A stretch of 64,000 nt of DNA, from NCBI GenBank assembly GCA_021774785.1, contig JAJFIQ010000019.1:434001-498000 (forward strand). The letters are read 5' to 3'. The stretch is from Emcibacter sp. Lineage in GTDB: Bacteria > Pseudomonadota > Alphaproteobacteria > Sphingomonadales > Emcibacteraceae. The notes under the pieces are model-generated. The model had not been told where the DNA came from. It saw only the letters and a program-made list of their open reading frames with translations, and did not search any database. This document shows, piece after piece, positions 51,119-53,401 of the stretch. The position numbers and the translations under genes are program-made. Positions within the stretch are counted from its first letter, which is position 1, and every line of letters starts with the position of its first letter.

Positions 51119-51295
51119 AAAAAAAATGCCGGGTTAAAAAACCCGGCAAGTCAAAATATAGGGAGGCTTCATGTCTTGGGAGACTATGAAACTGCCATGC
51201 TCCACAAAGGGGAGGATCTAGAGCATAGCGGCTGAAAAAACTTGGGAGAAATTTCAGCGGGATGCTGCAACGCAACATCTGTAGCTTAATATAGT
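51119..51295 (-). ncRNA. Predicted trans-acting sRNA with repeated CUCCC motifs
   Basis: A predicted 177-nt RNA from about 51295 (TSS placed 7 bases after a TATAAA -10) to the T-run at 51126-51119. It has no coding frame. On the minus strand it holds four CUCCC motifs (plus-strand GGGAG at 51244-51248, 51209-51214, 51178-51182 and 51161-51165). Stems: 8-bp 51261-51268/51272-51279; 7-bp GCTGAAA/TTTCAGC (51231-51237/51252-51258) and 9-bp (51194-51202/51221-51229), both enclosing a CUCCC-containing loop; a bulged stem 51168-51176/51181-51190. CUCC loops resemble alphaproteobacterial anti-Shine-Dalgarno sRNAs. Inference from sequence; no expression data. Confidence 0.7.
51127..51148 (-). terminator. 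Rho-independent terminator of the predicted sRNA
   Basis: A perfect 9-bp stem (TGCCGGGTT arms) with a 4-base loop, followed on the minus strand by eight T. On the plus strand the hairpin has no following T-run, so it serves the minus-strand transcript only. Confidence 0.85.
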
Positions 51296-51301
51296 GATTA
51301 T

Positions 51302-51330
51302 TTTATAGATAACCATAATTAGTTTTACAA
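51302..51330 (-). promoter_or_regulatory. Promoter of the predicted sRNA
   Basis: On the minus strand, TTGTAA (51330-51325) and TATAAA (51307-51302) with a 17-base spacer. The -35 matches four and the -10 five of six consensus bases. It lies between the lysR stop (51355) and the predicted sRNA 5' end. Confidence 0.6.
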
Positions 51331-51354
51331 TGCAGCCATGCGCTCAGCGCATAG

Positions 51355-52254
51355 CTAGAATTGAGTACCCTTGAATTGTTCTTTGATAAATTCCCTGAAT
51401 ACGGAGATGCGGCGGGAGTTGCGGGCTTCTTGTGTGTAAACAAGATAAGCGGGAAACTCTGGTCCTTCTTTGTCTTTTAATACTTTTACCACATTAGTGG
51501 AGCCCTGAACCAGATAATCCGGCAATGCTGCAATTCCTAATCCGGCTTTTACGGCCTGTAACACGCCGTAAATACTGTTGATACGCAAAATAGGGGTTCT
51601 TTTTTCCCCATTTTCTCTTTCCAGTACCCAATCTATATTTCTGGTTGGGCTACGCGATATATCGCCATAGGTAATTATATCATGATCATCTAGATCATCC
51701 ATCGTCTCTGGTCGACCTTTACGGCTGAGATATTCTGGGGCGGCATAAAGATGGTGATGAAAAACGCCAATCTGTTTTTGTATCAAATCCAGTTGATGGG
51801 CTGTGTGAAAGCGAAGGGCGATATCAGCCTGTCGGGTCGTCAGGTCGAGGTCGCTGTCATTGACCAGAAGCTGCACGTGAATTTCCGGATATCTTTCTAT
51901 GAAGGTACGAATATGGTTCATCATCCATGTGGAGCCAAAGCTAGATGTCGTTGTGATCCGTAATTCACCGCGTGGAACATCAGTGCCTTCTATTAACTGT
52001 TGTTCAGTAACATGAATTTTGGAAACCACTTCATCGGCGGTTTTAAACAGGGTTTCACCCTCATCGGTTAGACTCAGACCACGGGCATGTCGATTAAACA
52101 GAACCGTCCCCAGACTTTCTTCCAGTGATTTAATCTGGCGACTGACAGCAGACTGGCTAAGATAGAGTTCTTCCCCGGCGTGCGTAAAACTGCCGGAGGA
52201 GGCGACTACATGAAATATTCTTAATTTGTCCCAATCCATAGGCAGTAAGCTCAT
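51355..52254 (-). CDS. LysR-family transcriptional regulator
   Basis: A 299-residue LTTR. The N-terminal helix-turn-helix contains SGSFTHAGEELYLSQSAVSRQIKSLE, then the coiled linker, and a substrate-binding domain (about 95-295) with LPDYLVQGS. The target genes are not evident; trxB lies upstream on the same strand (45 bases) and the sRNA downstream. The N-terminal ATG is preceded by a weak ribosome site. Confidence 0.88.
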   Translation of the reverse strand: MSLLPMDWDKLRIFHVVASSGSFTHAGEELYLSQSAVSRQIKSLEESLGTVLFNRHARGLSLTDEGETLFKTADEVVSKIHVTEQQLIEGTDVPRGELRITTTSSFGSTWMMNHIRTFIERYPEIHVQLLVNDSDLDLTTRQADIALRFHTAHQLDLIQKQIGVFHHHLYAAPEYLSRKGRPETMDDLDDHDIITYGDISRSPTRNIDWVLERENGEKRTPILRINSIYGVLQAVKAGLGIAALPDYLVQGSTNVVKVLKDKEGPEFPAYLVYTQEARNSRRISVFREFIKEQFKGTQF

Positions 52255-52298: not shown

Positions 52299-53243
52299 TT
52301 AATTTTCAGCAAGAAAAGATTCCGCTTCCAGAGCGGCCATACAACCCATACCCGCTGCGGTCACTGCCTGACGATATATTTTATCAGTCACGTCGCCTGC
52401 GGCATAGACACCGGCAACATTGGTAGCAGTACTGTCCGGGGCCTTCAGAATATAACCCTGATTATCCATCTCTACTTTACCAGCAAAGATACCTGTTGAT
52501 GGTTTGTGCCCGATGGCAATGAATACGCCGTGAGCCGAAATATCACTGACTTCACCCGTTTTAACATTTTTGACTCTCGCACCGGTGACCCCACCCATGG
52601 GTGGTTCATCACCGACAATATCTTCAAGAACAGTATCCCAGATAACTTCGATTTTTTCGTTGGCAAATAGGCGATCCTGAAGAATTTTTTCAGACCTAAG
52701 TTCATCCCGTCTATGTATCAGGGTTACTTTCGATGCAAAATTGGTCAGGAAAATGGCTTCTTCCACGGCGGTGTTGCCGCCACCGACCACAATAACTTCT
52801 TTGTTGCGATAGAAAAATCCATCACAAGTGGCACAGGCAGAAACCCCAAAGCCCTGAAATTTTTGTTCCGAGGGCAGGCCAAGCCACATGGCTTGTGCGC
52901 CGGTGGAAATGATCACCGTATCACCAATATAGGTATCGCCGGATTCGCCGATACAGACAAAGGGACGCTCATTGAAATTCACACCGGTAATCATATCGGT
53001 GATAATTTCAGCATTCACATTACGGGCCTGTGCCTCCATCTGTTCCATTAGCCATGGGCCTTGAATGGGGTCGGCAAAGCCGGGGTAGTTTTCTACTTCC
53101 GTGGTGATGGTTAATTGTCCGCCAGGTTGCATTCCCTGAACCACGATTGGGTTTAGATTGGCACGCGCGGCGTAAATGGCTGCCGTATATCCGGCAGGAC
53201 CGGAACCGATTATGAGAACTCTAGTGTGATGTGTTTTAGCCAT
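52299..53243 (-). CDS. trxB: Thioredoxin reductase
   Basis: A 314-residue NADPH-dependent flavoenzyme that reduces thioredoxin. Start ATG 53243 (MAKTHHTRVLIIGSG); earlier in-frame starts lie in unconserved sequence. The FAD loop IIGSGPAGYTAAIYAARAN, the redox pair CATC (about residue 137-140), the NADPH loop VVVGGGNTAVEE-like (VIVVGGGNTAVEEA) and the late AAGDVTDKIYRQ are present. The low-molecular-weight class without a selenocysteine extension. Confidence 0.96.
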   Translation of the reverse strand: MAKTHHTRVLIIGSGPAGYTAAIYAARANLNPIVVQGMQPGGQLTITTEVENYPGFADPIQGPWLMEQMEAQARNVNAEIITDMITGVNFNERPFVCIGESGDTYIGDTVIISTGAQAMWLGLPSEQKFQGFGVSACATCDGFFYRNKEVIVVGGGNTAVEEAIFLTNFASKVTLIHRRDELRSEKILQDRLFANEKIEVIWDTVLEDIVGDEPPMGGVTGARVKNVKTGEVSDISAHGVFIAIGHKPSTGIFAGKVEMDNQGYILKAPDSTATNVAGVYAAGDVTDKIYRQAVTAAGMGCMAALEAESFLAEN

Positions 53244-53401
53244 TCTTAATTTCCATACAGTGATATGTTCAACTACTGCACCAGAATTTAAGAGATTTTC
53301 CCATAAATTCAACATCTGAATGATAAAAATCATTTTTTATTTGTGAAATTATATTTTTTGCGTAGTCTTAGAAAATTTTTTTAAAGGGGCGCTTGAGCTT
53401 G

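Follow-up and report, generated by a model that had tools for sequence, protein, structure and literature searches.

A conserved four-seed small RNA, probably LysR-activated, at the trxB-lysR locus of Emcibacter

Related small RNAs and the trxB-lysR locus

The transporter-silencing small RNA AbcR1 and its LysR-type regulator, VtlR or LsrB, matter for symbiosis and virulence. In Agrobacterium tumefaciens the gene order is trxB-vtlR-abcR1-abcR2 (PMC7486931), and both the class-wide trxB-vtlR order and the synteny of the AbcR1 region are already in print (PMC7486931, PMC8844928). In Brucella and Agrobacterium, VtlR has been proposed to bind a GCAT-N3-TG-N3-T box (PMC7486931), which lies at -61 to -49 in the abcR1 promoter of Sinorhizobium (PMC8844928); for LsrB, TGCA-N6-GCAT is given at NfeR1 (PMC10746234). 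AbcR1, AbcR2, NfeR1 and SisA repress through seeds directed at ribosome sites, according to mutation and reporter tests (PMC8844928, PMC10746234, PMC12559287), and SorX blocks potA translation. The defining motifs of these RNAs are aSD1 CUCCUCCC and aSD2 UUCCCCUC for AbcR (PMC8844928), the 10-mer UUUCCUCCCU for alpha-r8 (PMC12559287), and the CCUCCUCCC loop motif for alpha-r14 and the cuckoo RNAs (PMC3927594). The families alpha-r8 (MmgR/SuhB, RF00519) and alpha-r15 (AbcR, RF02345) belong to the same Rfam clan, CL00108. The alpha-r8 RNAs are described from all Alphaproteobacteria but the Rickettsiales, with multiple copies in many cases (PMC12559287), so that broad occurrence of related 3' modules is in itself already known.

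The window, i.e., the whole stretch of 64,000 nucleotides (64 kb) analyzed here, presents the order trxB-lysR-sRNA on its minus strand. The thioredoxin reductase gene trxB (52299-53333; TIGR01292, over the cut-off) is followed by lysR (51355-52254), and the RNA (51119-51281) lies on the lysR strand, 73 nt past the lysR stop codon. Pieces of lysR and trxB adjoin all 13 lysR-locus copies of the RNA in the genus. Among named genomes, the nearest is an Emcibacter MAG with a LysR 92% identical to that of the window. Given its place and its operator, the window LysR is likened to VtlR/LsrB, of which it would be an orthologue. The LsrB of A. tumefaciens senses peroxide by cysteines, of which C273 matters (PMC11975290). 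The window LysR contains no cysteine, hence the LsrB peroxide switch cannot operate in it and its input signal must differ.

Operator, promoter and structure of the RNA

A VtlR/LsrB box (GCAT-N3-TG-N3-T, GCATGGCTGCATT) is found at 51329-51341 on the minus strand, 61 nt before the first conserved base of the RNA, and matches the published box exactly. The RNA thus stands behind trxB and a vtlR-like gene with a VtlR box before it, as the alpha-r15 locus is defined, and the position of the box near -60 is the one expected of a VtlR/LsrB-activated small RNA, binding and activation by the neighbouring LysR being predicted. An operator palindrome, ATGC-N7-GCAT, lies at 51338-51352 (minus strand). 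Among the 19 genus copies examined, the box holds in 18, beginning 61 or 62 nt before the conserved AGATG, and the palindrome is exact in 16, starting 72 or 73 nt before it. All 19 present a -10-like element 13 to 16 nt before AGATG, which in the window is the conserved CTATATT at 51288-51294 (minus strand).

The initial annotation, made from the letters of the window, had placed the promoter at TTGTAA-N17-TATAAA. This pair is present in the sequence, and its TTGTAA overlaps the VtlR box at the end of the latter. The proposed promoter was rejected for want of conservation of TATAAA: at this place it occurs in none of the 11 other lysR-locus copies examined and none of the seven paralogues, one of the copies (L010) having a TATAAA four bases away. 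Because the conserved -10 element lies at 51294-51288, the 5' end of the RNA is predicted near 51281, which gives a length of about 163 nt instead of the 175 nt estimated previously. The 3' end is predicted in the U-tract at 51119.

When folded, the 175-nt form yielded a minimum free energy of -62.2 kcal/mol, compared with a mean of -33.9 kcal/mol for shuffled sequences (z = -8.1), and none of 200 shuffles was as low. These values, together with an intrinsic terminator detected by the terminator scan at 51119-51148 (nine pairs followed by eight U, minus strand), bear out the stem-loops and strong terminator initially described. Four hairpins precede the terminator, all on the minus strand. Hairpin 1 (51261-51279) has an 8-bp GATGTTGC stem and contains no anti-SD motif. 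Hairpin 2 (51231-51258) has a 7-bp stem with a CUCCC at 51248-51244 in its loop; hairpin 3 (51194-51229) has an 11-bp stem and a loop with UCCUCCCC, including the CUCCC at 51214-51210; and hairpin 4 (51166-51192) has a bulged stem whose tip is the CUCCC at 51182-51178. In the predicted fold, the stems closing the first two motifs thus have 7 and 11 bp, compared with the 9 and 7 bp counted by the first reading. The linker CUCCCUAUAUUUU (51149-51165) is single-stranded and carries the fourth seed (51165-51161) followed by an A/U-rich stretch.

The count of four CUCCC motifs, three displayed by hairpins and one single-stranded, agrees with the pairing probabilities of the predicted fold: motifs 2 and 4 are unpaired with probability of at least 0.96 at each base, and motifs 1 and 3 have their first two bases mostly paired and CCC open. 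Dinucleotide shuffles of the RNA contain 0.33 CUCCC on average, with four in none of 2,000, and elsewhere in the window there are at most two per stretch of equal length, apart from stretches overlapping the RNA.

The RNA had also been described as free of reading frames. A mechanical open reading frame of 102 codons does start at 51278, but it is not conserved: among the 19 genus copies, 17 have a stop 2 to 53 codons into the frame from the corresponding AUG, and in the other two, the window's included, this frame stays open through the stretch read. A small protein encoded by this stretch was therefore rejected.

Conservation within the genus and spread in the class

In a DNA search, the RNA was found in 13 of 16 genus genomes, including its own. 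These comprise all seven genomes with at least 90% completeness and at most 5% contamination; the three genomes with no match are 62, 64 and 67% complete. In the lysR-locus alignment of 12 orthologues, motif 1 keeps its register in 11, motif 2 likewise in 11 (and is at most five columns off in all 12), motif 3 is kept in nine and motif 4 in all 12. In the 19-row alignment of the RNA copies, from which L019 (masked letters) and L021 (same sequence as L003) were omitted, the linker segment CCTCCCTATA is invariant.

Pairing is maintained in 99.5% of the cells of the 12 orthologues, and nine pairs present changes on both sides, a number reached in none of 500 shuffles. The covariation score is 0.156, compared with a maximum of 0.047 when the structure is slid along the alignment, and it was likewise reached in none of 500 shuffles. 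For further pair types, these 12 sequences do not exceed chance (19 against 17.3, with 73 of 500 shuffles as high). Seven of the nine changing pairs are in hairpin 3, i.e., seven of the ten pairs considered there; with hairpins 1 and 4 and the terminator nearly invariant, the alignment gives no test of their pairing. Conservation of the stems and of the CUCCC loops had been set as a test beforehand, and both are kept in the genus, with covariation in hairpin 3. The RNA thus retains its four seeds while one stem changes freely, as is expected if the loops do the work.

In seven genus genomes the RNA occurs a second time, and the flanks examined around these additional copies contain no lysR. 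In the window's own genome this copy (L002, 1501-1664; C21:149314-149477) lies behind yqgE/algH, and the yqgE stop codon overlaps its operator. The second copy of L015 is also behind yqgE, judged by eye.

For the rest of the class, the LysR was searched against named genomes, which returned at least 80 loci, and the best 80 were used. A covariance model, R3, was built for the 3' module of the RNA (the core), and a locus was taken as positive above 29 bits. Behind lysR, among the 80 loci listed, 34 have a core RNA, nine have the AbcR signature CCUCUGGAAG and 37 have neither; 23 of these 37 also have no trxB. Given that 26 of the 34 positive loci supplied training rows, their match is by construction (those outside training are L021, L024, L025, L034, L039, L055, L058 and L096), and the independent search is the one over the class. 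The core alignment has 33 rows, obtained from 36 stretches by leaving out six (the near-copies L021, L024 and L096, the double L038:4049, and the doubtful L058 and L090) and adding the window, L002 and L013. In these 33 sequences, 12 of the 14 pairs of the core hairpin and terminator change on both sides, with none of 500 shuffles as high; for pair types, 24 of 500 shuffles were as high.

The class search with R3 at E 1e-4 gave matches in 91 of 192 genomes, own included, and no match in the other 101, among them both of the genomes sampled from a second family within this order. The weaker matches may be other members of the clan. When the best 30 class loci were chosen by the RNA alone, 22 had a LysR upstream on the same strand, 44-53% identical to the window's. 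The remaining eight have no LysR within the 1.5 kb examined, and four of them also have no palindrome. Considering 72 core hits (from 48 R3 matches behind lysR, the 42 that exceed 29 bits, plus the 30 best class loci), the palindrome occurs within 330 nt upstream of 51, compared with a mean of 0.8 and a maximum of 5 in 200 shuffles. The strict VtlR box precedes only 20 of the 72 (shuffles: mean 2.4, maximum 7) and is rarer outside the genus. Cysteine is absent from 25 of the 34 regulators beside core RNAs, against four of nine beside AbcR.

In the LysR tree, which left out 19 of the 23 loci lacking both trxB and RNA and whose root is not fixed, the nine AbcR-type loci fall in one clade of 14 rows, of which the other five have neither RNA type. 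The R3 label requires six changes on this tree, hence the core-RNA loci are not one clade. These results tentatively suggest, at a confidence that falls short of even, a class-wide module of LysR, operator and small RNA that kept its regulator, its operator and its place behind trxB and changed its RNA payload, with a multi-seed RNA in Emcibacter, Kordiimonas, Sneathiella, Minwuia and Rhodospirillales, and with AbcR confined to the Hyphomicrobiales side. The direction of the payload change is a guess, because the root is not fixed. If the suggestion is true, the circuit around AbcR1 in rhizobia and Brucella would derive from an older one that has no name, and the redox sensing of Agrobacterium LsrB would be a later addition. 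In that case, the signal to which the older circuit responded and the genes that it repressed would also become of interest.

Two or three core RNAs stand in tandem behind lysR in L030, L038 and L044 (Sneathiella and kin), L022 (Kordiimonas) and L042 (Magnetovibrio), several of them with a palindrome of their own. Downstream of lysR, loci L040 and L070 show several CTCC motifs by eye and present neither the core (16.8 bits in L070, no match in L040) nor AbcR; these regions are possibly a third RNA payload.

Affiliation, proposed mechanism and alternatives

No Rfam family is found in the 64-kb window at the cut-offs. At a loose threshold (E 5) there are 13 matches, of which the best is RF00519 and the next is SorX (RF02784). 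The alpha-r14 and CcsR groups had been cited by the initial annotation for their loop motifs, and a position as the nearest groups is not supported; the relatives that emerge as closer are AbcR1, by locus and promoter, and alpha-r8/MmgR and SorX, by the 3' module. NfeR1/alpha-r14 and the cuckoo RNAs do resemble the window RNA in repeating one anti-SD motif over several hairpins whose stems vary, and NfeR1 is LsrB-activated. They differ in locus and loop motif, given that CCUCCUCCC is absent from the window RNA, and NfeR1/alpha-r14 has no Rfam match to it at E 5. SorX, of Rhodobacter, has a similar 3' module and represses an uptake gene (potA), but it is 75 nt long and processed from a 3' UTR, and its 25.7 bits on the window RNA, against a gathering score of 46.6, fall short of SorX membership. 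The SorX cut-off is passed by the third of the three RNA copies in the Sneathiella locus L030.

The window RNA fails tested definitions of alpha-r15 and alpha-r8, and shares the locus and promoter of the one and the 3' module of the other; we therefore file it as a new branch of the clan. This kind of RNA is known already, and the branch at the AbcR1 locus would be the new part: beyond the rhizobial side, a different RNA with multiple seeds would be driven from this place by a similar operator. The branch and its place were not found in the literature searched; the lysR-linked copies could already figure in work on alpha-r8 distribution (Lagares 2016). For annotation, the gain would be an RNA mostly missed by Rfam cut-offs, with one match in 20 loci.

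The best-placed alternative, which we nonetheless consider unlikely, is that the RNA is a true, strongly diverged AbcR1 (alpha-r15) orthologue. The order trxB-vtlR/lsrB-sRNA, the operator with its box at -61, and the CTATAT -10 are all the same as in AbcR1 and AbcR2 of Sinorhizobium, Agrobacterium and Brucella, which also have CU-rich seeds in loop and linker. In addition, R3 weakly matches Labrenzia (26.4 bits, overlapping the alpha-r15 match) and two Roseibium loci (21.7 and 21.8 bits). However, RF02345 has no match in any of the 16 genus genomes at E 0.1, in a search with no positive control over the cut-off, and is missing from the 13 loose matches (E 5) in the window. Both aSD1 and aSD2 are absent from the window RNA, in which four CUCCC seeds take their place and the terminator follows four hairpins. 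Furthermore, the AbcR pair is tandem, whereas the second copy of the window RNA is unlinked, and the AbcR-type loci are confined to the LysR clade described above. The RF02345 model is itself narrow, giving 29.6 bits (cut-off 40) on the Labrenzia AbcR locus L057. Five loci (L043, L046, L057, L065 and L068) are AbcR-type by their seeds behind trxB-lysR and under this cut-off, the four besides L057 having no match at E 0.05. Both aSD1 and aSD2 are found in the Kaistia, Labrenzia, Roseibium (L065) and Tepidamorphus loci.

Somewhat less probable still is that the RNA is another alpha-r8 (MmgR/SuhB/SisA) RNA, an extended paralogue of the known family to which SisA-D of Caulobacter belong. The match to RF00519 reaches E 7e-5, and the hairpin, the CCUCCCU linker and the terminator are common to both. 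Yet its 31.6 bits are under the cut-off of 41, and low scores mean little for this model, since at E up to 1 it matches 13 of 14 control genomes. The 10-mer UUUCCUCCCU reads AAGCCUCCCU in the window RNA, with AAG for its first three U, and a separate, canonical alpha-r8 copy is encoded in the own genome (64.9 bits, with the published 10-mer). The window RNA also has extra seed-bearing hairpins on its 5' side and a LysR-type operator; in the part of the alpha-r8 study available to us, no lysR linkage is reported and SisA-D have no common promoter motif (PMC12559287). Membership in RF02345 and in RF00519 was accordingly rejected, for lack of a match and for a score below cut-off, respectively. 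Both this and the AbcR1 alternative are questions of filing, and the alpha-r8 one is compatible with the mechanism proposed below. The alpha-r8 matches in the own genome are at C16:110019, C11:957307 and C16:149243 (L161-L163), i.e., the canonical copy and two weaker ones (33.6 and 33.3 bits), which have a CUCCC linker and lie near rnhB- and trpS-like genes, by eye.

It is improbable that the RNA is cut from the 3' UTR of the lysR mRNA in the manner of SorX. Its strand and its distance from the lysR stop codon would suit such an origin, as would the match to SorX, which is itself 3' UTR-derived. Nevertheless, all 19 copies have the -10-like element and the box region at 61 or 62 nt (18 of 19 matching), seven of them with no lysR in their flanks, and the tandem copies of the Sneathiella, Kordiimonas and Magnetovibrio loci include several with a palindrome of their own. 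The paralogues, with the same operator and -10 element and no lysR beside them, reject the lysR 3' UTR as the sole source, the read-through case that the first reading had set as a test. Finally, a main role as decoys, or titration by a sponge RNA in the way CrfA sponges the alpha-r8 RNAs of Caulobacter (PMC12559287), is a very improbable alternative to mRNA repression by the motifs, given that SisA itself represses in Caulobacter.

We return to the reading we hold to be probable: the locus is a two-part module in which a LysR-type regulator activates a probably Hfq-dependent, 163-nt anti-SD repressor RNA from a separate branch of the AbcR/MmgR clan. For an RNA that is conserved and structured and displays anti-SD motifs in its loops, a trans-acting repressor, as initially proposed, is the best reading, and a predicted one, as are its transcription, LysR binding, Hfq binding and targets. 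In this mechanism, the VtlR/LsrB-like regulator would bind the operator about 60 nt upstream and switch on the RNA, which would expose all four CUCCC seeds, the last of them in the linker before the terminator and the others in hairpins. By analogy with AbcR1/2, NfeR1, SisA and SorX, the seeds may then pair with GGGAG-type Shine-Dalgarno sequences, blocking ribosome entry and speeding up the decay of several mRNAs, and the second copy behind yqgE would answer to the same operator. The A/U-rich linker and the U8 tail suit Hfq, which is encoded in the own genome, and binding is predicted; NfeR1 acts without Hfq (PMC8844928), so Hfq need not be involved.

As with AbcR1, the targets would most likely be mRNAs of nutrient uptake and metabolism. 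A target test over the 58 genes of the window was negative, with three Peripla_BP_6-type proteins (two over the cut-off) ranking 24, 25 and 28 on guessed starts. GGGAG is common in ribosome sites, hence the seeds alone name no targets.

When the operator was searched for in the whole own genome, the extended form was found without mismatch at two sites, one before each copy of the RNA. Including mismatches, the pattern has 34 sites, compared with nine for the reversed control pattern; two of them have one mismatch (C1:4113 and C11:92920) and thirty have two. No small RNA was recognized by eye at the C1:4113 site (L154), whose operator precedes a small gene pair that is toxin-antitoxin-like by eye.
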